Shown piece after piece: positions 31,867-63,705 of a DNA stretch of 64,000 bases. Within the stretch, counting starts at the first letter, position 1. Each line of letters begins with the position of its first letter. The position numbers and the translations under genes are program-made. The stretch comes from an uncultured Oscillospiraceae bacterium (GTDB lineage: Bacteria > Bacillota > Clostridia > Oscillospirales > Oscillospiraceae): NCBI GenBank assembly GCA_947632175.1, contig CANROC010000005.1, forward strand, positions 62,001-126,000, written 5' to 3'. The notes beneath the pieces were generated by a model, which had not been told where the DNA came from, did not search any database, and saw only the letters and a list, made by a program, of their open reading frames with translations.

Positions 31867-32559
31867 TTAGGTGTAGTGGCGCTGACCGAAGATGGCCGAG
31901 CCCACCCGGACCATATTTGCTCCGCAGGCGATGGCGTCCTCAAAGTCGGCGCTCATGCCCATGGACAAAAGACTCATAGTAACATTATCGTATTTTTTTG
32001 CGCGCATGTCAACAAAAAGGTTGCGTGTTTGTCCAAAATATTGGATGGTTTTTTCCCGGTCGCCCGTATTGGGGGGGATGGTCATGAGCCCCAGGACCTC
32101 CACGCCGGGGATGGACGAGGCCGCGGCGGCCATGGCGGGGAGCGCCTCCGGCAGGGCGCCGGTCTTGGACGGCTCCCGGCCGATGTTGACCTCCAAAAGG
32201 ACCCGCTGGGTGATGCCGAGGGCCTGGGCCCGGCGGCCGATGAGCTCTAAAAGCTCCAGGGAGTCCACGGATTCGATGAGGTCGGCCTTGCCCACCACGT
32301 TTTTGACCTTGTTTTTCTGGAGGTGTCCGATGAAGTGGAGCGCCGCGCCGGCGTAAGCGCCCCGCGTGTATTTTTCCTCCAGCTCCTGGACGCGGTTTTC
32401 GCCGAAGGCACGCACGCCGGCCTCAAAGGCCGCGCGCACACGGGCGGCGTCGTTCATCTTGGAGGCGGCCACCAGCGTCACCGGATGGCCGGCCCTTTGG
32501 GCGGCGGCCTCGACCCGGGCCAGGATGGCTTTGGCGTTTTCAAAGACCGTGTCTGTCAT
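31867..32559 (-). CDS. yggS: YggS/PLPBP family PLP homeostasis protein
   Basis: A 230-residue protein of the fold-III PLP-binding YggS group. The lysine motif LVAASKMNDAARV (the usual AVSK region), FGENRVQELEEKY and HFIGHLQKNKVKNVV are present. The C-terminal MSADFEDAIACGANMVRVGS followed by AIFG binds PLP phosphate. It buffers free pyridoxal phosphate. The ATG overlaps the stop of the upstream HlyD-like gene (ATGA). Confidence 0.94.
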   Translation of the reverse strand: MTDTVFENAKAILARVEAAAQRAGHPVTLVAASKMNDAARVRAAFEAGVRAFGENRVQELEEKYTRGAYAGAALHFIGHLQKNKVKNVVGKADLIESVDSLELLELIGRRAQALGITQRVLLEVNIGREPSKTGALPEALPAMAAAASSIPGVEVLGLMTIPPNTGDREKTIQYFGQTRNLFVDMRAKKYDNVTMSLLSMGMSADFEDAIACGANMVRVGSAIFGQRHYT

Positions 32560-33737
32560 CGTTCCACCACCGCGCCGTTGTAGAGGGCGGCGGCCCGGAC
32601 GATGATCTGGTCGTTTACCCGAAGACCGTCCCGCGTGGCCTCCACCATGTACAGGTCCGCCGTTTCGGTGAGGATGGTCACCGGGATCTCCCGGGCGCGG
32701 ACGCCCTCCAGGATATAGACCACCGTCTCGCCCTCGTCGTTGAGATGCAGGGCCTCCCGGGGGACGCTGACGCCGGAGAGGGTCCCGAAGACGATCTCCG
32801 CCGTGGCCTCCCGGAGGGCCGCCGTGTTCTGTAAGTACCGGTCCGAGGAGAGGACCACGCAGCACTCCCCGTCCTCCGGCTGGCTGACGGACTCTACCCG
32901 CATGGTGAGCTGGGCGGCGTAGGTCCGGGAAAAGAGAGTGTCCACGCTCTTGCCCGGTGTGAGGCGCAGGGCGCTTTTCTCGTCGAGGACGGTGACATAG
33001 TACCACCGGATGCCCTTCGCCAGACGCCCCACGGCGTCCGCCTCCGGCGCACGCGGCTCGGCGAAGAGCTCCCGGAAGCCCGAGGGCGTCAGGTCTTCAA
33101 GCGCCTCGGGACCCAGGTCCTCGAACCCGTCCACGCTGAAGGAGAAGGTCCCGGCGAAAGGGGCGGTGAGGCGCTGGGTGTCGCTCTCGGCGCTCTGGGC
33201 CAAATCGTGGAGCTCGGCCTCGAGACTGGCGATCTCGGCGGCCTCGTTGCCGGAGGAGAGGGCCGAGCCGGAGATGATGTAGGCGTCCACGTCCCGGGCC
33301 ACGCTGTAAAGCTTGCTCAGGTCCTCGGAGAGGACGAGCTTTGAGAGGCTCTGGACGGCGGAGCCGGACAGCTCGTCGTCGGTCTTGCCGTTCATGACGG
33401 CGGTGAGCTGGCGGATGCGCAGTTGGATCTCGCTGATGCGCTGGGCGCGCTCCATGGCGGCGGCGCCGGAGTAGCGCACGGCCACGGTCTCGCCCTTGGC
33501 AAGGCGGGCCCCCTCGGTGGCGGTGACGGCCAGGTCCGCGCCGGAGGCGGTGAGGACCTCCTCGTCCCGGACGATGAAGCCGGCGGTCTCCACGCCGTCG
33601 TGGGTCTCCATCCCCACGGCCTTTACGGTCCGCAGGGGGTCGCGGAAGCTGGTCACAAAGGAGACGCCCAGATACGCCATGACGGCCACGAACACCAATA
33701 CCGCCACGAGCCTGATGAGCGAATCGCTCCTCTCCAC
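32556..33737 (-). CDS. HlyD-like membrane-anchored adaptor protein
   Basis: A 393-residue protein with one N-terminal membrane segment (about 8-28), a short coiled coil (about 95-115 and 165-180) and barrel-sandwich and beta-barrel parts. This is the plan of HlyD-type membrane fusion proteins, with SGADLAVTATEGARLAKGET as the lipoyl-like half. No exporter is beside it; it is first in a gene run with yggS, sepF and divIVA, so a role in the cell envelope at division is possible. Function unknown. Confidence 0.75.
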   Translation of the reverse strand: MERSDSLIRLVAVLVFVAVMAYLGVSFVTSFRDPLRTVKAVGMETHDGVETAGFIVRDEEVLTASGADLAVTATEGARLAKGETVAVRYSGAAAMERAQRISEIQLRIRQLTAVMNGKTDDELSGSAVQSLSKLVLSEDLSKLYSVARDVDAYIISGSALSSGNEAAEIASLEAELHDLAQSAESDTQRLTAPFAGTFSFSVDGFEDLGPEALEDLTPSGFRELFAEPRAPEADAVGRLAKGIRWYYVTVLDEKSALRLTPGKSVDTLFSRTYAAQLTMRVESVSQPEDGECCVVLSSDRYLQNTAALREATAEIVFGTLSGVSVPREALHLNDEGETVVYILEGVRAREIPVTILTETADLYMVEATRDGLRVNDQIIVRAAALYNGAVVER

Positions 33738-33770
33738 ATAAAGCCCCCCCTTCCGGACAATAACTCATCT

Positions 33771-33799
33771 ATTATAGCACATCCTTTTGCCGTTGTCCA
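33771..33799 (-). promoter_or_regulatory. Sigma-A promoter of the hlyD-like/yggS/sepF/divIVA run
   Basis: TGGACA, 17 bp and TATAAT with a TG extension. It drives leftward, back to back with the promoter at 33854-33882. Confidence 0.7.
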
Positions 33800-33853
33800 A
33801 CACAATTGTGAAAACCGTGAGAAAAAACCTGCGGGCGGGGGAGAGGAAGAGGT

Positions 33854-33882
33854 TTGACAAGCATTTCCTGCCGTAGTACAAT
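33854..33882 (+). promoter_or_regulatory. Sigma-A promoter of the RyR/TIR module
   Basis: TTGACA, 17 bp and TACAAT, about 32 bp before the first gene of the two-gene module. Confidence 0.75.
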
Positions 33883-33914
33883 GGGGAAAACCATTTTGGG
33901 AGAGAGGGACAGTC

Positions 33915-35777
33915 ATGAAAAAGAGATTCGGGAAAGGGCTGGTGCTTGCCCTGGCCGCCGCGTCCTTCATCATCGCCGTGCTGGAGGGGTTCATCTACTA
34001 CGGGGTCTACGGGGGCACGCCGCTCTTTGAGCTGATTTTGGTGGTGCAGAACGGCATCAAGGCCTTCCTCTTTACCCCGGACATCCCGGCCCAGGCGGTG
34101 CTGGCGTCCCTGCAGGGCGACGTGGGGACATGGCAGTACGCGGTGGGGTGCGCCTATGTGGCGGCGGTCTTCGTCGCGCCGCTTTGCACCGCCACCGCCC
34201 TGGTGAGCACCGTCGAGCTGCTGCTTCGGCGCGGGACCCATATCTCCGGCGGCAAAGCGCCGGTCACTCTGGTCTACGGCTGGAGCTCCACCGCCCAGTC
34301 CATCCTGCGCCGTCACACCAGGGAGGAGGGGGACGTGTACCTCGTCACCGACAAGGCCCTCGCCAACGCCCAGCAGCTGGAGCTGACGCGGCGCAACGTG
34401 TTCCCGTGCCAGGCCAAGCAGGAGGCGAGGCTTTGGAAAAGGGCGGAGCGGATCTTCCTGCTGGACGAGTCCCCGGCCAAAAATTTTTCCCGGTACGCCG
34501 CGCTCCAGCGCCGGTGGGAGGAGAGCCCCACGGCCCTCTCGCCCAAGGTGATCTGCGCCTGCGAGGACGCGGGCGTGGGGGACCTCATCAGCGCCTTCCA
34601 CGATGAGCGCGTCCGCCGCGCCCCCGCCGCCGGGGTGCTCCCGGTGAGCCTCTTCTCCATGGCGGAGCTCCAGGCCAAGGCCGTGTGGGAGGCCTGCCCC
34701 ATCAGCGCTTACAACTTCGGGCCGGACTTTCAGGGGCCGGAGGAGCGGCGGTATGACGTGAGCATGGTGCTGGTGGGCCTGGGGACCTTCGGGCAGAGGC
34801 TCCTGGAGCAGGCGGTGAGCCTGGGCGTGCTCAGCTCCACGGGCCACACGCGCTTCGACGTCATCGACCACGACGCCGGGGAGCTTATGAGCTTTTTCAA
34901 AAGCGCCTTTTCCCCGGCCTATGTCCAGGTGGACCGGGAGACGGGGCGTCTCACCGTCCCGGCGGGGAACGCCGACGGGTCCCTGACCATCTGCTTCCAC
35001 CCCTGCGACGTGGACGACGGCGATTTCCTCCCGCTGCTGCGGCGGTTGAACGATGAGCACCCCTTTACCTACGCCGCCGTCTGCCTGCGGGATACCGACG
35101 CGGCCCTCCGGTGCCTCAACCGCCTGGACCGGGTCCTCCGGGAGAGCGGCAGGGCCGTTCCCGTGGCCCTGCGCCTGGAGGCCGACCCGGAGCTTGCCGC
35201 CTATTTCAAGGGGGAGACGCCCTTCTTCGGGAAGGTGTTCCCCGTCTGCGGCGAGGCCGACCGGCTGACGCTGAAGCGCCTGGCGGCGGAGGAGGCCTAC
35301 GCCGGGGCCATCCGGTTCAACCGGGTCTACAACGCCCTCTCCGCCGCCCTGGACGGCGGCGGCGAACCGGAGGGCACGGCGGAGAGCCAGTGGAGGGCGC
35401 TGGAGTTCTTCAAGCAGCGCTCCAGCCTCTTCCAGTACCTCCACCAGACGGTGAAGGCCCAACGCCTGGCCTTTGAGCGCAGCCGGGAGGAGCCCTTCAA
35501 GCCGGAGAAGCCGGCGGAGGCGGGGGAGTACGAGGCCCTGGGCCGGCCGCCCCTGACGGACCCCCTGGCGCTGGAGTTTGCCAGGATGGAGCACCGGCGC
35601 TGGTGCTATTACATGGCCGTGAACGGCTGGGCCTACGGGGAGAAAAAGGACGCCGCCCGGCGGCTGAGCCCCTGCATGGTGACCTGGGAGGCGCTTTTGC
35701 GCGGGGACCAGCGGTACACCTGCCAATACGACACAACGCCCTACCGCGTTTTGACGCAAACGACCAAGGAGGAATGA
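33915..35777 (+). CDS. Membrane protein with RCK/TrkA-N-like domains and C-terminal RyR domain
   Basis: A 620-residue protein. Two or three hydrophobic segments lie in residues about 8-105. A first nucleotide-binding-like domain follows (about 113-270). A second Rossmann domain opens VSMVLVGLGTFGQRLLEQ near residue 282, with the GxGxxG loop and a D at the end of the next strand, as in RCK/TrkA-N. The last 70 residues (EHRRWCYYMAVNGWAYGEKK, then LSPCMVTWEALL) match the RyR repeat domain. The TIR gene starts three bases after its stop, so they form one operon. It may be a ligand-gated membrane effector or sensor; that is inference. Confidence 0.75.
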   Translation: MKKRFGKGLVLALAAASFIIAVLEGFIYYGVYGGTPLFELILVVQNGIKAFLFTPDIPAQAVLASLQGDVGTWQYAVGCAYVAAVFVAPLCTATALVSTVELLLRRGTHISGGKAPVTLVYGWSSTAQSILRRHTREEGDVYLVTDKALANAQQLELTRRNVFPCQAKQEARLWKRAERIFLLDESPAKNFSRYAALQRRWEESPTALSPKVICACEDAGVGDLISAFHDERVRRAPAAGVLPVSLFSMAELQAKAVWEACPISAYNFGPDFQGPEERRYDVSMVLVGLGTFGQRLLEQAVSLGVLSSTGHTRFDVIDHDAGELMSFFKSAFSPAYVQVDRETGRLTVPAGNADGSLTICFHPCDVDDGDFLPLLRRLNDEHPFTYAAVCLRDTDAALRCLNRLDRVLRESGRAVPVALRLEADPELAAYFKGETPFFGKVFPVCGEADRLTLKRLAAEEAYAGAIRFNRVYNALSAALDGGGEPEGTAESQWRALEFFKQRSSLFQYLHQTVKAQRLAFERSREEPFKPEKPAEAGEYEALGRPPLTDPLALEFARMEHRRWCYYMAVNGWAYGEKKDAARRLSPCMVTWEALLRGDQRYTCQYDTTPYRVLTQTTKEE

Positions 35778-35780
35778 CCC

Positions 35781-37577
35781 GTGGATCACGAATTTTTCAT
35801 CAGCTACCGCCGCGCCGACACCCAGGCGGCGCAAAAAATCTGGCAGGCCCTGCGGGACCGGGGGCACCGCGTCTTTTTTGACACGGACTCCCTGGACGCC
35901 GGGGATTTCACGGAGAACATCCGCGCCGCCATCGAGAGCTGCGACATGTTCGTCGCCATCCTGACGGAGAGGAGCCTGGAGCGGATGGCCCGGGACCCGG
36001 AGACGGATATGGTCCGCAAGGAGCTGGAGTATTGCCGCGCGGGCCGGCGGCTGACCCAGTTTTTCATGCTCCTGGACGACCCGGCGGCCCAAAAAGGGCG
36101 GCTTTACGAGGTCCTGAAGCAATACGACGGCGACGAGCTCATGCGGTGGATCGCCCGCCAGAACATCACCGAGTTCCAGGGCGGGGACGAGCCCGTGGAC
36201 GGGGTCTTGGGCATCGCCGGCGTTTGCGGGAAGCTCCTCCAGGCCAAAGCCGACAAGGTCCGCGCCCTGCACTATGAGCGGAAGACCTGCCTGGGGCTCG
36301 GGGACAGGAAGCTCACCTATTACGGAAGCGTCCGCCGCAAGGGCGGGGACGGAGAGGTCGTCCCCCGCGGCCAGGGGAGGCTTGTGGAGGACGGAAAGGC
36401 GGAGGATTTCCTGGTCTACGACGGCGAATGGGAGGGCGGCGACGCCTTGGCCGGCCGGGGAGAGATCTACATCCAGGGGCGCGACAGCCGGAGGCTCATC
36501 TACCGGGGCCACTGGACGGACCTGCTCTTCGACGACGCGACCGGGACCCTCTACGGCCCGGACGGCGTCACCGTCGCGTACCGCGGGACCTTCGCCATGG
36601 GCAAAATGGCGGGGATCGGCAGGGCGGTCATCACCGCGGGGGAACAGGAGGTCGATTTTACCGGACGGTTTTACGGCGGTATGCCCGGATACGGCAGCCT
36701 TCGGATCGCCCGCGGCGGCCGGGAGGACGTTTTTCGCGGCAGCGTCTACGCGCCCTTCCGCGCCGTGGAGGCGGGCGTCCCTTTCCACACGGTCCTGCCG
36801 AAATTCGGACGCATGGAATACGCCAACGGCACGGTCTACGAGGGAGAATTTGGCTTTTTCAGGGAAAAGCTGACCTGGCAGGGCTGGGGCACGGCGGAGA
36901 TCCCCGCGCCGGGCTTCCGCCTGCGGGCCGAGAGCTTCTTCGACGAAGGCCGGCCCGAGCGCCGGGAGCTGCCCGCCCGCGTGGAGGTCCTCCCGGAGGG
37001 GGAGACGGAGTACCGCGCTGTCTTTTCCGGCGGCCTGCGCGCCGGGACGCTCAACGGCGAGATCCGCTTTTTGAACGGGACGGTCTTCCGGGGCGACTGG
37101 CGGCGCGGAGATGATTCCGCGCGGAGGGGCTTCGGGGACGGCAAATACGTTCCGGGCGCCTTTTTCGACGCCCAGGGGCGGGAGTTCACCCCCACCGACG
37201 CCCAGCGGGACTTCTACGCGCGGCAGTGGGAGGCGCTGATCGCGCCGCTGCTGGACTGGTCGGACGACAGGACGGCGGAGGAGCTGACGCGCGGCGAGCC
37301 CCTGCCCCTGGAGTGCCCGGAGGCGCCGGAGGAGGAAGCGCCGGCGGAGGACGGCGTCTGGAACGAGCCGGAGCTTCAGAACGAGTTTACGTTCGTCCTC
37401 GATATGGCCCGGAGCATGGGCGCGCCGGAGAGCGTCACGGCCAGGGACGTGGTGGACGTGATCCTGGCCAAGCCCGCGCTGGCCGGCCAGTGGCGGGGCC
37501 TGGGGACCACAGCCGAGCGGGAGGCCTTCCTGCTGCGGAAGGCCCCGGACATCGTGGCCGCGATGCTCATGGGCTGA
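35781..37577 (+). CDS. TIR domain protein with MORN-like repeats
   Basis: A 598-residue protein. Residues 3-120 are a TIR domain: FFISYRRADT, then VFFDTDSLDAGDFTENIRAAIE, and VRKELEYC, where E81 is at the place of the catalytic Glu of NADase TIRs. From about 185 to 450 are six or so MORN-like repeats (YDGEWEGGDALAGRGEIY, YANGTVYEGEFGF, FRGDWRRGDDSARRGFGDG). A helical domain (about 500-598) closes it. TIR domains can cleave NAD or build nucleotide signals. It is coupled to the RyR protein upstream. Immune role is inferred. Confidence 0.82.
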   Translation: MDHEFFISYRRADTQAAQKIWQALRDRGHRVFFDTDSLDAGDFTENIRAAIESCDMFVAILTERSLERMARDPETDMVRKELEYCRAGRRLTQFFMLLDDPAAQKGRLYEVLKQYDGDELMRWIARQNITEFQGGDEPVDGVLGIAGVCGKLLQAKADKVRALHYERKTCLGLGDRKLTYYGSVRRKGGDGEVVPRGQGRLVEDGKAEDFLVYDGEWEGGDALAGRGEIYIQGRDSRRLIYRGHWTDLLFDDATGTLYGPDGVTVAYRGTFAMGKMAGIGRAVITAGEQEVDFTGRFYGGMPGYGSLRIARGGREDVFRGSVYAPFRAVEAGVPFHTVLPKFGRMEYANGTVYEGEFGFFREKLTWQGWGTAEIPAPGFRLRAESFFDEGRPERRELPARVEVLPEGETEYRAVFSGGLRAGTLNGEIRFLNGTVFRGDWRRGDDSARRGFGDGKYVPGAFFDAQGREFTPTDAQRDFYARQWEALIAPLLDWSDDRTAEELTRGEPLPLECPEAPEEEAPAEDGVWNEPELQNEFTFVLDMARSMGAPESVTARDVVDVILAKPALAGQWRGLGTTAEREAFLLRKAPDIVAAMLMG

Positions 37578-37649
37578 CGGCGGGGAACCGGAAGAAAATT
37601 TCCGGACAAAAGATTCTCTTTTTTCCATCAAAAAATCGGCAAAATCATC

Positions 37650-37678
37650 TTGCATTTTTCGGAATGATGCGTTACAAT
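37650..37678 (+). promoter_or_regulatory. Sigma-A promoter of the SLH protein gene
   Basis: TTGCAT, 17 bp and TACAAT, followed by an untranslated leader of about 160 nt with GC-rich hairpins (ACCGCCGC...GCGGCGGT-like). A long structured leader is common for abundant S-layer messages. Confidence 0.65.
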
Positions 37679-37845
37679 AAACAGGCATATAGATGTCACA
37701 CCGCCGCGTGCCGGCGGTGCGGGACGCGCAGGGGCGGAATTGGCAGATCCGCGCCGGCGGGGAACGCGCCGCAGCGACGGGACGGCATTGAATATGAGGT
37801 GAATTGGCGATCCCCAAAAAATTTTTATCGAAGGAGAGCAAAGCT

Positions 37846-39939
37846 ATGAGGAAAAAAGTACTTACCCTGATCATGGCGCTGGCGATGCTTCTCACCCTCG
37901 TCCCCACTGCCTTGGCCGCTGAGTTCAAGGACCAGGACGAGGTGGAGGATTGGGCTGAGGATGCCGTTGACCGTTGGGCCAACGCCGGCGTCATCAGCGG
38001 CGACAACGAAGGCAACTTCAACCCCACCGGCGATCTGACCCGCGCGGAGGCCGCGCAGGTCCTCGTGAACCTTTTGAAGCTGGAGGGCACTGCCGACCTG
38101 TCCGGTTTCGCTGACTACGCCACGGCCGTTAAGGACCATTGGGCTGTTCCCGTGCTGGAGGCCGTTGTGGCCGCCGGCATCATGAACGGCACCGATAAGG
38201 GCCTGGAGCCGGAATCCACGGTCACCCGCGAGCAGATGCTCACCATGATCTGCCGCGGCCTGCACCTGGAGCCCGCCCCCAAGGACGCCGAGACCGACAT
38301 CCCCGACATTGATGACGCCGCCGAGTGGAGCCGCGGCTACATTATCGCGCTCAACAAGATGGGCGTCGTCAACGGCGTGGACAATGAGGGCTCCGCCGCT
38401 CCTCTGACCGACATCAGCCGCGACGCGGCCGTCACCGTTCTTGACCGTCTCATCGGCGGCTACGCCAGCGAGGACGGCCAGTCGGTCGAGATCGAGGAAG
38501 GTAAGATCACCCTGATCGTGGCCGACAACGTGAAGGTCGAGGGCACTGCCGATCCCGAGCTTCCCATCGTTGTGGCCGGCACGGCCAACACCGTTGACAT
38601 GGAGAAGGTCGAGGGCGCTCCCGCCGTCCAGGTTACCGTCTCCGAGGTCAAGATCGAGAACGCCCCCGCCGGCACCACCGTCTCCGCGGTTGAGGGCGCC
38701 ACCGACGTCACCGTCGGCGACCAGACCGTCGAGCCCGGCGAGCCCCCCGTCGTCGTCGAAGAAGATAAAGAGCCCGAACCCACCACCCCCATCGTTCCTC
38801 CTGCGCCTCCTGCTAACCCCGATGCCGGCAAGGCTTTGGAAGCCGCGAATAAAGCGTGGGATGCGCTGGCAACGCTTCTTGAAAATAAGAAAGTGAACGG
38901 ACTCATCATTGCCGAGAAGGACACCAACGGCCATTATACCCTTACTCTTGACGCCGATGCTATCAAGGCTGACCAACCTGCTTTTGGTGAGGGAACCCTC
39001 GATAACCTGATGGGCGATATCAAGAAGGCCATTGATGACAACTTCGGCACCGCGACCCTCAATATCAAGGTGGCCGATGATGGTAACCCTGTTCCTGTTT
39101 ATGCGAACAAGAAGTTTGACAACACCAATCTCAAGGCCGCGCTTGTTTACGTTGCCGACGGCTTCTTCTACAAGCTGAGCCAGCTGAACGTTGATGAGGG
39201 TGGCGCAGAAACCGTTTATGAGTACAAGACCCTCACCGGCACGGTTGTGTATGGTGGCGGGACCGATTCTGCCAACGTCTCCCTCGCCATCAAGCTCAAG
39301 GGAGAGGACGTTAAGAAAGTCCAGGCCCTTGCTGACAAGCTTCAGCAGTATCTCTCCATGGATCAGATGACTATGACAGAGATTACCAAGAAATATGGCA
39401 GCGGTAATATCCTCAACAACGTCACCGGCGAGGACAAGTACATCGTTGTGGGCGTTGAGCTGCCGCCGAGCGTGCTTAAAAAGCTCAAGTCTATTGTTCC
39501 GACCGAACAACAATTCAAGGAGTATAGTATTACCCAAGCTTTCGGCGGACTTAAAAACGTGGAGATTGGCACGGATATTCTCACCGGGGATGCCGCCAAC
39601 ATCAATTCCGCGCTCAAGACTGTCAACAGCAACGCAAACCTCATCAACAAGGTTCTGAGCAAGCTGACCATTTCGATCGATGGCAAGAGTGTGACCAGCA
39701 CCTTTAACCCCGGTAGTACCGACTCCGCGTGGAAGGACTTTGTCACAGGCGTTGCCGGTATGTTCACCGGCGAAATCGGCAACACCCAGGTCAAGGACTA
39801 TGCGCTGACCGGCGGAACCGAGGATGGCACTTTCTACGCAGTCCCCGTGAAGGTTCAGATTAATCTTCCTTCTATGGGCTTCACAGCCACAGAGACTGTT
39901 ATTGTGATTCTTAACATTCCGTACGATACCACGGACTAA
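37846..39939 (+). CDS. SLH domain surface (S-layer-like) protein
   Basis: A 697-residue exported protein with a signal peptide (about 1-25, ending ALAAE) and three N-terminal SLH repeats (about 26-210; for example NFNPTGDLTRAEAAQVLVNL). A Val/Thr-rich part, a Pro/Glu linker near 310-330 and a C-terminal region of unknown fold with alternating strands follow. SLH repeats bind pyruvylated wall polymers. The ATG at 37846 follows GAAGGAGAG. It uses T-ending codons more than neighbours, which fits high expression or foreign origin. Confidence 0.88.
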   Translation: MRKKVLTLIMALAMLLTLVPTALAAEFKDQDEVEDWAEDAVDRWANAGVISGDNEGNFNPTGDLTRAEAAQVLVNLLKLEGTADLSGFADYATAVKDHWAVPVLEAVVAAGIMNGTDKGLEPESTVTREQMLTMICRGLHLEPAPKDAETDIPDIDDAAEWSRGYIIALNKMGVVNGVDNEGSAAPLTDISRDAAVTVLDRLIGGYASEDGQSVEIEEGKITLIVADNVKVEGTADPELPIVVAGTANTVDMEKVEGAPAVQVTVSEVKIENAPAGTTVSAVEGATDVTVGDQTVEPGEPPVVVEEDKEPEPTTPIVPPAPPANPDAGKALEAANKAWDALATLLENKKVNGLIIAEKDTNGHYTLTLDADAIKADQPAFGEGTLDNLMGDIKKAIDDNFGTATLNIKVADDGNPVPVYANKKFDNTNLKAALVYVADGFFYKLSQLNVDEGGAETVYEYKTLTGTVVYGGGTDSANVSLAIKLKGEDVKKVQALADKLQQYLSMDQMTMTEITKKYGSGNILNNVTGEDKYIVVGVELPPSVLKKLKSIVPTEQQFKEYSITQAFGGLKNVEIGTDILTGDAANINSALKTVNSNANLINKVLSKLTISIDGKSVTSTFNPGSTDSAWKDFVTGVAGMFTGEIGNTQVKDYALTGGTEDGTFYAVPVKVQINLPSMGFTATETVIVILNIPYDTTD

Positions 39940-39960
39940 TTACCCATACCCCAAACGCCC

Positions 39961-39994
39961 GGTGGCAGGCAGGATTCTGCCTGCCACCGATTTT
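39961..39994 (+). terminator. Intrinsic terminator after the SLH gene
   Basis: GGTGGCAGGCAG-GATT-CTGCCTGCCACC is followed by GATTTTG. The stem is 12 bp and perfect. Confidence 0.75.
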
Positions 39995-40038
39995 GGTTTA
40001 CTCTTTTCACCGGTTCGGTGAGTTGAAAGGAGTTCAAA

Positions 40039-40116
40039 ATGGATAAAGACATAAAATTGCCGGAGCATCTGACGGCGATTTGCTTGGTTGTATACGAAAT
40101 GAGGTGTACTCTATGA
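40039..40116 (+). CDS. 25-residue upstream ORF overlapping the giant surface protein gene
   Basis: An ATG seven bases after GAAAGGAG opens MDKDIKLPEHLTAICLVVYE and five more residues; its TGA overlaps the ATG of the next gene (ATGA). Such an arrangement couples translation of the downstream gene to the short ORF. The peptide resembles no known leader; it has two Cys. Whether it is made is unknown. Confidence 0.5.
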   Translation: MDKDIKLPEHLTAICLVVYEMRCTL

Positions 40117-43100
40117 AAATCGGAAGACGCTTTCTTTGCTTCTCCCTCGCGCTGCTGCTTGTAGTGAGTGTGCTGCCACTGAGCGCGCTGCCGATAAGGG
40201 CGCTGGCGGCGCCGGGTACAAGTCAGAAAGAGGCCGTCAATGCGGTTTATGACGCGATGAAAGAAGCGATCGCCGCGCCGGATGACGGAGTCAACGCAGC
40301 GCTTACAGGGATTGCCAAGCTGGATTTTATAGAAGGTTCAAGCGGCGGTGTCGCTTGTAATTTTATTACTGAAAGCACTCCTGCCATGGACCTGTTAGGT
40401 GTGGATTTTTTATCTAAACTGTTTGAGTATGAAAATATCGAATCGATTACTTTTCTTGACGCTGATCCGACATCTAATTATGTGACAGAGTATATGAGTA
40501 AACAGCAAAAACCGGGCACGGCTTTGCAATTATTGAATGCAGGGCTTATGATGCTAGGACAGCCGGTTGAAATACATACAGAGAATGATCAACTTGTTTT
40601 GATGCTCGCTGTTCTTGCGTCTGTTACAGCCCGTTACGAGGGCAAGATAGAAGAATTTGCGACTAAAACTACAACTGTAGAAATAAGTTTCCTAAATGGT
40701 ACGCAGGTTCCCGTCACGCTCAACGGGGCAGTTGACGGTATTAAATTCAACGCCCCTGTCACGATTTATTTCTGCAATAGTACCGCCAAGCATAACGTGA
40801 CCTTTACAGGCGTTGGCGTTACAGGTGGTAGCTCCACCGAATACCAATATGACGCCCCGATTCAGTTCCCGGAGGCGAACAATGTCGGTCAAATCCTCTA
40901 CGGTTGGAAAAAGACCTGTACCGACTATGGCGATGATAAAAATGGTGGAAAAGATGTAGAGTGCGGCGTGATTTCTGCCGCTGACGCCTCGTCTGAGAAG
41001 ATGGGGGCGCTTGACGTCACATACGAAGCCCAGTGGACGTCCGAAACCAAGGACGTGAAATTCCACTACGAGGATGGTACATCTTTTACAAAGACGATTA
41101 CCCAGGGCGTCGGCAAGGGCTGGCTGCTCCCGGAAACCCCGAAGCGGGAGGGCTACACCTTCCTCGGTTGGTTTACCGAAAAGGGAGACAGCGGCAGCAA
41201 AATCGGAGAGAACTATGTCACTGAAAACGGCACAGATATCTACGCCCATTGGTGGAAACACCCTGTTGTTACTTTCCATAACGAATATACACGCAATACA
41301 GATACAAAAGTAACCACAGATTCCAGGGGCATGGTACCTGCGGCTCAAGCCGAGAATCTAGGAAATGCTAAACTAGGATATACTTTCCACGAATGGCTGG
41401 ACTCTGAGGAAAATGGCAAAAAGATAGATTTTGACACCAAAGTGTTTACGGAAGATACCACCGTCTACGCAAAGGTTACCGCCAACACCTACACCGTGGA
41501 ATTCAAGCCCGGAGAAGAGGGTAACGTTGAAGGTACGATGGAAAGCCAGAGCTTCACCTATGGCGTGCCACAAGAGCTCAAGGCGAACGAGTTCATCCGC
41601 AAGGGCTACGACTTTGATGTCTGGTCTCAAAGTCGTAATAAGACATATACAGATCGCCAGGAGGTGTCGAATCTCACCTACGCTCAGGGCGGGAAAGTCA
41701 CCCTGACGGCCAAGTGGAAGGCAAAAACGTACGATGTGACCCTTGACGCCGCCGGGGGCAAAATCAACGGCAAGGACACAGATACCATCACCGTCACCTA
41801 CGACCAGACCTACGGCGACCTACTGACCGAACCCACAAGGGAGGGTTACGAGTTTGCCGGCTGGCAGACCGCCGGCGGTGAAACTGTAGGCCAGCAGACC
41901 AAAGTTGGCGAGGGGCTCGATGTCACTGCGGAGGGCGAGCTTAAGCTTATCGCTCAGTGGAACCCCAAGGGCGATACCAAGTATACAGTGAAGCATTGGC
42001 TGCAAAAGGTCGATGGCAATGAGTATGAGCTTGCCGATAACGGCGAGGAAAGCAAGCAGGGTCAGACTGCCGCCGATGTCACCCTGACGCCCAGAGAGAT
42101 TACGGGCTTCCATGTCAATAAGACAAGCAGTAATGACCTTAAGGGCACGATCGGCGCGGATGGCAAGACCGTCATGAACATCTACTACGACCGCAACACC
42201 TATCAGATCACCTGGAAATACCGGGACGAGACAGGAAGCGAGACGGAGGTGCAGGAGACCTACCGCTACGGTGCCACGCCCGCGCACAGGGAAGCGGAAG
42301 TGAATGTGGATACCGACAGCGCTCACTATGAGTTTAAGAACTGGGATAGCACTCCTGCCACGGTGACCGGCCCGGCGACCTACACAGCCCAGTACACCGA
42401 AAGCCACGAGGCGAGAATAGGCGAGGTCAACTGGCGCACGCTGGAGCTCGCCCTTAAAAACGCCAAAGCGAACGATACCGTTGTCCTTGAAAGCGACGTC
42501 ACCTTGACCGGCGATGTGGAGGTTCCCAAGGACGTCATGCTCCTCCTGCCCGTCTCCGCCGATGACACCGGCTACACCGAGACGGGCTACAATCCCGACG
42601 GGGAAACATATTCACAGACTACCGGCAAGGACTCCAAAGCGCAGCTTTTCCACAAGCTGACCATCCCCGCCGACACGACCATGACGGTCAACGGCACGGT
42701 TTTGGTCAACGCCGTCACCGGGCGGCCCAACGCGGGACATTACGACATGGACGTGACCGGAGGGTACGGTGAAATCGCGCTTGAGGGCGAAATCATTGTC
42801 AAAGATGGCGGCGTTCTTGACGTGTGCGGTTATGTTACCGGCAACGGTACCGTCACCGCCGAGCCCGGCGGCGAGGTTCGGGACCTTTACATCGTCCGCA
42901 ACTGGCGCGGCGGCACACGGGCGGTCAATGTCTACCCGCTCGTCTACCCCATGAACCAGGTGGACATGCACAACATCGAGGTCAAGACCGTTATCAAGGC
43001 GGGCGCCAGCCTTGTGGGTACCGTCAAGATGTACGCAAACACCCAATATTACTACACCCGCTTCCCGCAGATAGATCAGGAAAACGGACTTATTCGTCAG

Positions 43101-45266
43101 TCCGAGGGCTCTGTTATCAAGACCTACGACAAGATCAATGACCGGGAAAAGCTTGTCATGGATGGCAAGGGCAGTATCGAGGCAAGCGAGCTTTTCATTG
43201 TTCAGATGAATTTGACCACCGGGGACCATGTCTATCCCATAGACGGCGATATGGACATTGAGCTCTCCGGCAACTGGACGGTCAACGAGCGGCTCAAGCT
43301 GATGCCCGGCGTCAATGTCCAATTCAAGGAAGGCACGTTTACCTTTGCTAAAACGACCGCCAAGAGCAAAAGGGATATGCTGACGGCGATCTATGACAGC
43401 TTCCAGGACAGGGATCTCTTTAACGACGGTACCGCCTATCCGAGTAAACGCGGCGAAGCCTCGCTGACATTGGGCGGCGGGACTACAACGGTCGTAAACA
43501 GCGATTTTGGCGGAAAAATCCTTGTGGCGGACACTGCCACGGAGGATAATCCCGCGAGGATAACCTTTGCCCCGGGGATCGAGACCACCGTTACAACCTA
43601 TGAGGCAGACGGGACAGAGGCAAAATCAAAGCTCCGGACTCTGACTTTCTCCACTACCATTGGCGGTACAGAGGTCAAAGCGGGAACAAATTACATCTGC
43701 TATGTCAAGGACGGCGAAACTGTTGTCAAGCCCTCCAATGACGTGCCTGAGATCGAAATAGACTTTGAGCATGAGACATTGACCGGCTTTGCCGAGGGAC
43801 ACAGCTATACAGTCAACGGCGAGGACGCGCAGCCCAATGGGGGCAGCCTTGCAATTGAGGAAGGCTGGTTCGGAAGCGAGCTGGAGATCGTTGACGTTAC
43901 CGGCGACAAATTTTTGAGCAGCCAGCCGCAGACCCTCGCCGTTCCCACGCGTCCCGAGGCTCCCGCGGGCCTGAGTGGAATGACGCCCAGCTCGCCAGAG
44001 GGAACCGACGGCTCTATAACCGGTCTCGACAGCGGGAAGCTTTACGAGTACAAGCTGACTGACAGCGAGGAATGGACCGATGTGGACGCGGAAAGCACCT
44101 CTATAACCGGTCTCGCGGTGGGGATTTATCAGGTCCGCGCCAAGGCCACGGCTGACGCTTTCCTGAGCGAGGCGGCAACCGTTGAGGTCAAATATGTCGC
44201 GCCCTATATCCCCAGCACTCCCGACAACACCACCGAGACCGTCACCAACCCCGACGGCTCTACCACTACAACGACCACCGAGGCCGACGGGACCAAGACT
44301 GAGACAACGACACAGACCGACGGGACTGTTACCGAGAAGGTCACCCAGACCGACGGCTCCGCCGTTGAGACGACCACCACCCCCGAGGGCGTCACCGGTC
44401 AGGTGACCACCGACGCCCAGGGCGAGGTCACGGCCGCCGAGGTCGTGATCCCCGAGGCGAAGGAGGACGAGGTCGTCACCGCGCCCGTGGAGGTCCAGGC
44501 CGCCAAGAGCGCCGACGAGGCGCCGGAGATCAGCGTCCGCGTGGAGAAGGACTCTGCGCGCGTGGAGATCCCCGTCACGGACGTCACGCCCGGGACCGTC
44601 GCCGTGCTGGTCCACGAGGACGGCACCGAGGAGATCATCCGCGACTGCGCCGTCACCGAGGACGGCATCGTGCTCGGCGTCGAGGGCGAGGTCACCGTGA
44701 AGCTCGTGGACGCCACGCAGACGTTCAAGGACGTGGAGGACGAGGGCCACTGGGCCGCGAAGGAGGTCGAGTTCGTCGCCGCGCGGCAGCTCTTCAACGG
44801 CGAGGGGGACAACAACTTCAACCCCGACGGCGACATGACCCGCGGCATGCTGGTCACGGTCCTGCACAGGTTGGCGTATGAGCCGGATGCCGTGAAGACG
44901 AGCTTCGGCGACGTGGACGAGGGCCAGTACTATGCCGAGGCTGTGTCCTGGGCCGCCGGCCTGGGCGTCGTCAACGGCACCGGCAACGGGTCCTTCGCGC
45001 CGGAGGACGACGTCACCCGCGAGGATCTGGCGGTGATGCTCTACCGCTACGCCGAGAAGATGGGCTACAGACTGACGCAGGACGGCAAGTACACCAGCTT
45101 CGCGGACGCAGCGAATGTCAGCGACTACGCCCGCAAGGCCATGGACTGGGCCGTGAGCATGGGGCTCATCGGCGGCAAGGATGGGCGGCTGGCGCCTCAG
45201 GATAACGCCACCCGCGCCGAGGTCGCCGCGATCTTCATGCGGTTCTGCGGGAATGTGATCAAGTAA
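40113..45266 (+). CDS. Giant SLH surface protein with InlB-type B repeats
   Basis: A 1717-residue exported protein. It has a signal peptide (about 1-32, ending ALAAP) and a unique N-terminal region (about 35-230) encoded by AT-richer DNA. Several Listeria-Bacteroides/InlB B repeats follow (REGYTFLGWFTEKGD, REGYEFAGWQTAGGE, MucBP-like TWKYRDETGSE). Next are a beta-helix-like middle part, a Thr-rich direct-repeat stalk around 1370-1440 and three C-terminal SLH repeats (about 1540-1717). It should stand out from the wall and bind a host or other partner; no ligand can be named. The start follows GAGGTG. Confidence 0.87.
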   Translation: MKIGRRFLCFSLALLLVVSVLPLSALPIRALAAPGTSQKEAVNAVYDAMKEAIAAPDDGVNAALTGIAKLDFIEGSSGGVACNFITESTPAMDLLGVDFLSKLFEYENIESITFLDADPTSNYVTEYMSKQQKPGTALQLLNAGLMMLGQPVEIHTENDQLVLMLAVLASVTARYEGKIEEFATKTTTVEISFLNGTQVPVTLNGAVDGIKFNAPVTIYFCNSTAKHNVTFTGVGVTGGSSTEYQYDAPIQFPEANNVGQILYGWKKTCTDYGDDKNGGKDVECGVISAADASSEKMGALDVTYEAQWTSETKDVKFHYEDGTSFTKTITQGVGKGWLLPETPKREGYTFLGWFTEKGDSGSKIGENYVTENGTDIYAHWWKHPVVTFHNEYTRNTDTKVTTDSRGMVPAAQAENLGNAKLGYTFHEWLDSEENGKKIDFDTKVFTEDTTVYAKVTANTYTVEFKPGEEGNVEGTMESQSFTYGVPQELKANEFIRKGYDFDVWSQSRNKTYTDRQEVSNLTYAQGGKVTLTAKWKAKTYDVTLDAAGGKINGKDTDTITVTYDQTYGDLLTEPTREGYEFAGWQTAGGETVGQQTKVGEGLDVTAEGELKLIAQWNPKGDTKYTVKHWLQKVDGNEYELADNGEESKQGQTAADVTLTPREITGFHVNKTSSNDLKGTIGADGKTVMNIYYDRNTYQITWKYRDETGSETEVQETYRYGATPAHREAEVNVDTDSAHYEFKNWDSTPATVTGPATYTAQYTESHEARIGEVNWRTLELALKNAKANDTVVLESDVTLTGDVEVPKDVMLLLPVSADDTGYTETGYNPDGETYSQTTGKDSKAQLFHKLTIPADTTMTVNGTVLVNAVTGRPNAGHYDMDVTGGYGEIALEGEIIVKDGGVLDVCGYVTGNGTVTAEPGGEVRDLYIVRNWRGGTRAVNVYPLVYPMNQVDMHNIEVKTVIKAGASLVGTVKMYANTQYYYTRFPQIDQENGLIRQSEGSVIKTYDKINDREKLVMDGKGSIEASELFIVQMNLTTGDHVYPIDGDMDIELSGNWTVNERLKLMPGVNVQFKEGTFTFAKTTAKSKRDMLTAIYDSFQDRDLFNDGTAYPSKRGEASLTLGGGTTTVVNSDFGGKILVADTATEDNPARITFAPGIETTVTTYEADGTEAKSKLRTLTFSTTIGGTEVKAGTNYICYVKDGETVVKPSNDVPEIEIDFEHETLTGFAEGHSYTVNGEDAQPNGGSLAIEEGWFGSELEIVDVTGDKFLSSQPQTLAVPTRPEAPAGLSGMTPSSPEGTDGSITGLDSGKLYEYKLTDSEEWTDVDAESTSITGLAVGIYQVRAKATADAFLSEAATVEVKYVAPYIPSTPDNTTETVTNPDGSTTTTTTEADGTKTETTTQTDGTVTEKVTQTDGSAVETTTTPEGVTGQVTTDAQGEVTAAEVVIPEAKEDEVVTAPVEVQAAKSADEAPEISVRVEKDSARVEIPVTDVTPGTVAVLVHEDGTEEIIRDCAVTEDGIVLGVEGEVTVKLVDATQTFKDVEDEGHWAAKEVEFVAARQLFNGEGDNNFNPDGDMTRGMLVTVLHRLAYEPDAVKTSFGDVDEGQYYAEAVSWAAGLGVVNGTGNGSFAPEDDVTREDLAVMLYRYAEKMGYRLTQDGKYTSFADAANVSDYARKAMDWAVSMGLIGGKDGRLAPQDNATRAEVAAIFMRFCGNVIK

Positions 45267-60903: not shown

Positions 60904-63705
<2,802 letters not shown>

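Follow-up and report, generated by a model that had tools for sequence, protein, structure and literature searches.

A candidate two-gene TIR/RyR nucleotide-signaling module in an uncultured Oscillospiraceae bacterium

Within a stretch of 64,000 nucleotides from an uncultured Oscillospiraceae bacterium (assembly GCA_947632175.1, contig CANROC010000005.1, forward-strand positions 62,001 to 126,000; the window hereafter), we have analyzed two adjacent genes encoding a membrane protein that ends in an RyR domain (P0001) and a protein in which a TIR domain is followed by MORN-like repeats (P0002). On balance, we favor the view that they form a two-gene nucleotide-signaling module, most likely anti-phage, that is organized in a Thoeris-like manner with the RyR domain as receptor. 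The genes, their domains, the retained residues and the recurring linkage are established directly, while a role in defense, a nucleotide ligand and channel activity are inferred.

An earlier note on this DNA had stated that its reading would fail if the two genes were unlinked elsewhere; the TIR/RyR linkage does recur, far outside the genus. Of the genomes searched for the RyR domain (PF02026), 394 were from the order, 391 from the class and 398 from the phylum, with some shared, and matches were present in 32, 27 and 10 genomes, respectively. TIR_2 was then sought in the genomes behind the RyR matches, in sets of 43 (G017 added) and 23, and was found in 33 and 22 of these. Taking open reading frames (ORFs) of 350 amino acids or more as long and leaving the window genus (two rows) out of the long set, a TIR match lies within 8 kb of 17 of the 43 long RyR ORFs (0.41 expected; 12/29 by genus) and of 12 of the 28 short ones (0.55 expected; 12/26 by genus). 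Within 2 kb the counts are 11/43 for long (0.10 expected) and 11/28 for short ORFs (0.14 expected). Three of the 76 distinct RyR matches were dropped, i.e., the second domains of two counted ORFs and one 84-residue frame below the cut-off. The gene arrangement is a stronger argument for linkage than these counts against even placement. Eighteen TIR/RyR pairs, three of them from the window genus, could be mapped with their gene ends: in 15 both genes lie on the same strand and are separated by -11 to 107 nt, two others share a strand but have a gene in between, and the last has its genes on opposite strands. In a quick-search tree built from 37 RCK-RyR proteins, with 15 of the 33 inner branches starred, the presence of a TIR neighbor requires seven changes, of which at least six are forced by starred branches. 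The label 'no' on this tree stands for no adjacent TIR_2 in the available sequence; accordingly, L023 (G168) is labeled 'no' although a TIR lies 5.2 kb off, and L081 has a DUF4062 rather than a TIR_2 neighbor.

A ligand for the RyR domain is suggested by phages. According to a preprint of May 2026 (PMC13232231), phage RyDEP is an RyR-domain glycosidase of the 2' and 3' isomers of cyclic ADP-ribose (2'cADPR and 3'cADPR), the TIR-made signals of Thoeris; six of eight tested RyDEP homologues bind 2'/3'cADPR, and the ligand contacts in RyDEP are His75, Trp78, His100 and Asp117. RyDEP (gp78 of phage DyoEdafos) was aligned with 71 other RyR domains, that of the window included. In the resulting 72 rows the His75 column holds His throughout (72/72) and the Trp78 column Trp in 71/72, two figures that may be overstated since the search model was seeded with domains carrying this H-and-W motif, while His is found in 38 rows at His100 and Asp in 54 rows at Asp117. 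When domains were placed by Pfam (57 of 73 matches), the H..W motif is present in 55; the match in L049 starts after the motif and L057 lacks it. The motif is also present in 14/14 proteins chosen by their Pfam place. The window RyR domain resembles RyDEP in being a PF02026 domain and in retaining both residues, as H560 and W563.

The best solved relative of the TIR domain of P0002 is SARM1/TIR-1 (E 9.2e-9). By alignment, Glu81 falls in the column of the SARM1 glutamate, which is the catalytic residue of that enzyme, in line with the earlier note, which had put Glu81 at the catalytic place; the activity itself is a prediction. The glutamate is retained by alignment in 20 of 21 TIRs, a count covering the window and loci L042-L087, with one of the two TIR stretches of L042 taken and the TIRs of L134-L142 excluded. 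By its domain and its glutamate in the SARM1 position, the window TIR would fit the TIR enzymes that consume nicotinamide adenine dinucleotide (NAD). The earlier note had further described MORN-like repeats and a helical tail. The TIR domain and the tail (predicted local distance difference test, pLDDT, of 85-94) stand, whereas the repeats have no MORN match in Pfam to E 1. MORN_2 matches do occur in the TIR partners of L044 (above the cut-off) and L043 (below it), and MORN-type chains came out on top in a structural second look made with a poor model of P0002 (mean pLDDT 49.4). By sequence, the repeat region has no relative among solved structures to E 10. Neither structure model was used as proof.

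The repeats are also the part of the system that differs most between close relatives. The window pair and its counterparts in two related genomes are 89% identical in the TIR domain (residues 1-90) and 89-91% in the RyR part (residues 546-620), against the far lower identity in the repeats (residues 166-470) that is given in Table 1; the repeats of the two relatives are 96% alike. Yet the RyR proteins of these two relatives (555/620 identical residues) are less alike than those of the window and L004 (570/620); the value for the window and L005 is 538/620. Loci L004 and L005 appear to come from the same genomes as G017 and G015 and are not independent of them. The fourfold degenerate sites in the repeats are the same in only 56-71% (16-50 sites per segment), while those at the TIR start and the RyR end are the same in 96-100%. 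Because these sites have diverged as well, the repeat region seems to have been exchanged rather than changed by amino acid substitution only. An exchanged repeat region next to stable TIR and RyR domains is the pattern that would be expected of a pathogen-facing sensor, although the three genomes are few.

Both proteins are found in the same three of 149 genomes (the own genome included; E 1e-10 or better), all of one genus, and they are adjacent every time. These close relatives are uncultured Oscillospiraceae. The upstream neighbor (window 32559-33737, minus strand) is present in 31 of the 34 genomes of the genus, and 28 of these 31 lack the pair. The site was compared in ten of these 28 pairless genomes, and nine keep the same ordinary gene order, including what is presumably an Hfq-like gene beside the upstream neighbor, while one differs. 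The pair is thus an accessory element at an otherwise conserved chromosomal site.

Both genes are real, adjacent ORFs on the plus strand, with the three-base gap that the earlier note had reported between the RyR gene and the downstream TIR gene. A chance ORF was rejected for either gene, as both are conserved in relatives and look coding by their scores. A minus-strand ORF of 1441 amino acids (33765-38090) that spans both genes was rejected as a high-GC shadow. The pair has its own promoter match, as had been proposed, and two promoter-type sites were found in 33700-37900 where 0.3 would be expected from shuffles. The description of P0001 as a membrane protein with RCK/TrkA-N domains and a C-terminal RyR domain holds for the membrane part, given its hydropathy peaks, and for the RyR domain. 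The latter is marginal overall: the PF02026 match scores 24.7 bits (E 2.8e-5) in the protein scan, below the cut-off of 27.4, and 28.2 bits in the genome search, above it; the relative in G015 reaches 31.9 bits. The RCK part is suggested by a GxGxxG motif (VLVGLGTFG, residues 285-293) and by the TrkA_N matches of other RyR proteins, which occur in L045 and L075 (both below the cut-off), L081 and L083; in P0001 there is no Pfam match to RCK or TrkA-N, and the Rossmann-like region matches no profile of any kind. P0001 is 92 and 87% identical to its relatives in G017 and G015, respectively.

In the mechanism that we propose, the MORN-like repeats and the tail of the TIR protein would detect a cue that is probably a product of a phage, upon which the TIR domain with Glu81 would cut NAD to give an ADP-ribose (ADPR)-type nucleotide, perhaps a cADPR isomer, as family and residue suggest. 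The RyR domain would bind this nucleotide via His560 and Trp563, by homology to RyDEP, for which binding is reported in PMC13232231. The RCK-like region would then relay the signal to the part with two transmembrane (TM) segments, which might open a pore or harm the membrane in another way, stopping growth or the phage. A channel is envisaged here because the membrane part of sister proteins is a recognizable K+-channel domain. The most specific form of this proposal, a bacterial circuit in which a TIR triggered by phage forms an ADPR isomer and this cADPR-type nucleotide opens an ion channel gated by an RyR domain, is tentative, and we lean towards doubting it in this full form. The earlier note had suggested that one protein makes a signal which the other senses at the membrane. 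The recurrent TIR/RyR linkage, the diverse partners and the ligand binding by RyDEP reported in PMC13232231 support the idea of a maker and a receiver but do not prove it; the likely ligand site is the RyR domain, either in place of the RCK-like region or in addition to it, and enzyme activity and phage protection are so far predicted.

The flow could also run the other way, with the membrane RyR protein as the sensor of a nucleotide or of the state of the membrane, and with TIR-MORN as an effector that drains NAD without any second messenger. The direction cannot be read from the architecture alone, RCK and RyR both being ligand-binding types of domain, and the closest solved relatives of the TIR domain, SARM1 and TIR-1, are titled NAD hydrolases. 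Yet the fast-changing and exchangeable part is formed by the repeats on the TIR protein, the repeats of the TIR partners at other loci vary as well (MORN_2/RHS-like, TPR, LRR, DUF5050), which fits a sensor at that end, and TIR products are reported to be bound by RyR domains (PMC13232231). We therefore consider a reversed flow unlikely. It is rather improbable, too, that the RyR domain serves as a brake that sequesters or degrades the TIR product and so holds the TIR response off. RyDEP and its homologues are reported to act in this way for phages (PMC13232231), and short RyR genes are inserted between long RyR and TIR genes in L076, L079, L134 and L138; the window RyR domain, however, has Thr instead of Asp at the catalytic position of RyDEP and forms part of a membrane protein, and the genome has a single RyR match and no short RyR gene.

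A housekeeping function in ion or turgor control, exerted by an RCK-type membrane regulator with the TIR neighbor as a mere scaffold, would agree with the RCK/TrkA-N likeness, with the ordinary chromosomal surroundings of some RyR-RCK genes and with the housekeeping genes adjoining the window locus. It would not be expected to go along with a glutamate retained in nearly all TIRs, a pair restricted to so few genomes, an exchanged repeat region or the linkage to SLATT and DUF4062 in a few other loci, and its probability is low. Least credible of all is that the two genes are unrelated neighbors brought together by the clustering of defense genes, which is a known tendency that the even-placement null leaves out. 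The tight same-strand spacing of most mapped pairs, a TIR-RyR fusion and the joint presence and absence of both genes make this very hard to maintain.

Several observations nevertheless weigh against an anti-phage module with the RyR domain as receptor. Neither window protein reaches the cut-off of a listed NCBIfam defense family, and no defense island was seen around the pair. The canonical selectivity filter is missing from the membrane part of P0001: the TVGYG sequence is absent from the loop between the TM segments when aligned with the TVGYG channels of L043, L044 and L048, and Pfam gives no Ion_trans_2 match. The AlphaFold model of P0001 (mean pLDDT 35.9) is useless. In the RyR domain, His100 of RyDEP is replaced by Ser and Asp117 by Thr (Asn and Thr in G015 and G017); with two of the four ligand residues changed, the window ligand may not be 2'/3'cADPR, and we expect the domain to be a binder, perhaps of another ligand, rather than a RyDEP-like enzyme. 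The null for the linkage counts assumes even placement and ignores the clustering of defense genes, so that its P values cannot be taken at face value. There is no TIR_2 match within 8 kb of 26 of the 43 long and 16 of the 28 short RyR ORFs; some of these are at contig ends, but L045, L050, L069, L072, L073 and L080 are among those in ordinary surroundings, and RyR proteins can thus exist without an adjoining TIR. Finally, the TIR label on the tree is not only scattered but also clustered by relatedness (seven changes versus a shuffled mean of 12.0), and the window clade, on a long branch, is weakly placed (81).

Table 1. Features of the window locus and architectures of RyR proteins at other loci.
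Feature	Window position or loci	Strand	Remarks
Sigma-70-type promoter match	33854..33882	+	TTGACA-17-TACAAT, 11/12 matches; precedes RyR gene
Membrane RCK-like/RyR protein P0001	33915..35777	+	ORF of 620 amino acids; proposed signal receiver/membrane effector
Two predicted TM segments	33915..34244	+	Residues 1-110; hydropathy peaks at residues 9 and 79
Rossmann/RCK(TrkA-N)-like region	34245..35339	+	Residues 111-475; GxGxxG at 288-293; boundaries and two-domain count are estimates
RyR domain	35565..35729	+	Residues 551-605; PF02026; H560 and W563 align with RyDEP H75 and W78
TIR and MORN-like repeat protein P0002	35781..37577	+	ORF of 598 amino acids, GTG start; proposed sensor and signal maker
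TIR domain	35793..36047	+	Residues 5-89; PF13676, E 9.3e-15
Glu81 codon	36021..36023	+	Column of SARM1 Glu by alignment
MORN-like repeats	36276..37190	+	Residues 166-470; proposed sensor; 56-57% identical to two relatives
C-terminal helical part	37368..37574	+	Residues 530-598; block pLDDT 85-94
One to two TM + RCK-like + RyR	Window; L042, L051, L052, L086		
Ion_trans_2 channel domain with TTVGYG + RyR	L043, L044, L048		
Three to four TM + RyR	L045-L047, L049, L050		No TIR seen near
TrkA_N + RyR	L081, L083		
RyR proteins of about 575 amino acids	L062, L063, L084, L085		No predicted TM
AAA + RyR	L053, L055, L064, L067, L086		

RyR proteins and their partners are diverse (Table 1). Those with an Ion_trans_2 domain adjoin TIR genes in G393 and G427. 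In L083 (G937), a RyR-TrkA_N gene precedes genes for a SLATT-domain protein (41.0 bits, at the cut-off) and a TIR protein, and L081 (G1048) has the equivalent gene pair, with SLATT below the cut-off, together with a DUF4062-TPR gene and no TIR_2; these genes perhaps make up a larger conflict operon. The loci L134, L138, L076 and L079 share the order long RyR gene, short RyR gene of about 94-103 amino acids, TIR gene, the short gene in L076 and L079 touching or nearly touching the long one; the short RyR protein may act as a brake or else be a further subunit of the receptor. A TIR-RyR fusion is encoded in G118 (L056:7799-9805; TIR at residues 390-493, RyR at 590-662), and its TIR lacks the glutamate by alignment. 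In L140 and L142 (G780 and G697), short RyR and TIR genes have as neighbors what we guess from the sequences to be a PP2C-like gene and genes for membrane- or kinase-like proteins of very large size, and perhaps represent another type of system.

As to the genomic setting, the pair lies between cell-division and surface-protein genes, as the earlier note had it: on one side are genes that we take to be divIVA-, sepF- and yggS-like, and on the other presumably SLH-type surface-protein genes. The latter are downstream of the pair in the window (37578-45266) as well as in G015 (L060, 13129-14677). In G017 other genes (ssb-like) follow, so that a rearrangement border adjoins the pair. A plasmid or phage relative of P0001 was not found at E 0.001, nor in viral contigs, and a TIR partner as query gave no plasmid match. 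Plasmid searches with distant RyR proteins yielded one informative locus outside the phylum of the window, the Arcobacter plasmid CP146529.1 (L088, 42478-54840), on which TrkA_N, RyR and DUF4062 genes are consecutive, with a type I restriction gene and an integrase nearby. Another record search gave, among the matches listed (30 of 227), mostly KefB matches to the Rossmann part and was not used. Likewise not used as support are the loci of Methylobacterium, with a SIR2 gene nearby, of Endozoicomonas, with a phage-like stretch, and of Streptomyces. Two records labeled 'Bacteriophage sp.' (MT837259.1 and MT836850.1; L132 and L133) carry short RyR genes that are 61-63% identical, but their gene content, as judged from the sequences, looks like that of fragments of bacterial chromosomes.

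Among known systems, Thoeris is similar in that the window TIR gene, with its glutamate, stands at short spacing beside the gene of a proposed nucleotide-receiving effector. The window receiver seems to differ, having RyR, RCK-like and TM parts, with SLOG, SIR2 and macro domains giving no match in P0001 to E 1, and the TIR protein has MORN-like repeats. The NCBIfam model ThcB4 gives 31.7 bits against its cut-off of 220, and no Thoeris model cut-off is reached; a ThsB match (E 2.1e-6, in a library without cut-offs) covers the TIR part only. The pair probably works like Thoeris even though it lies below all cut-offs of its models. For the RyR proteins, no defense-model match was obtained (one scanned with NCBIfam and one with PADLOC to E 1; two with PADLOC and six with NCBIfam to E 1e-5), and L083 gave only matches of the TrkA, Kef and K+-channel type. 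Compared to RyDEP, the window RyR domain, besides its two replaced ligand residues, is built into a membrane protein whose gene adjoins a TIR gene in a bacterial two-gene locus. Animal ryanodine receptors contain the homologous domain, whereas the window has one RyR match in an RCK-like protein with two TM segments. In bacterial K+ channels with RCK (Ion_trans_2 and TrkA_N) two TM segments likewise precede a Rossmann-like region, but P0001 lacks both TVGYG and Ion_trans_2, which are met in the sister proteins of L043, L044 and L048. With the SLATT/DUF4062 conflict systems, in which RyR-TrkA_N stands beside SLATT and TIR (G937) or DUF4062 (G1048), the window pair shares only the TIR. By titles and the beginnings of abstracts, none of the papers listed in the literature search describes a pairing of TIR with RyR or a RyR channel of bacteria, a result that a 2025 preprint on TIR systems outside this search could change; six passages of PMC7016017 contain nothing on bacterial RyR with TIR. 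The TIR/RyR pair may be a relative, so far undescribed, of known anti-phage systems.

In summary, the model would add a receptor class, composed of RyR, RCK-like and membrane domains, to TIR-based immune signaling, and would suggest an origin for the RyR 'sponges' of phages. If the full circuit from a cADPR-type nucleotide to a RyR-gated channel is true, phage RyDEP proteins would derive from receptor domains that had been captured, and the debated connection of cADPR to the ryanodine receptors of animals would gain a bacterial counterpart or root. The action of cADPR-type nucleotides on RyR domains would become testable in a simple bacterial pair. For the RyR-domain proteins of this phylum, which are left unnamed by the defense models scanned, the analysis provides a functional lead.

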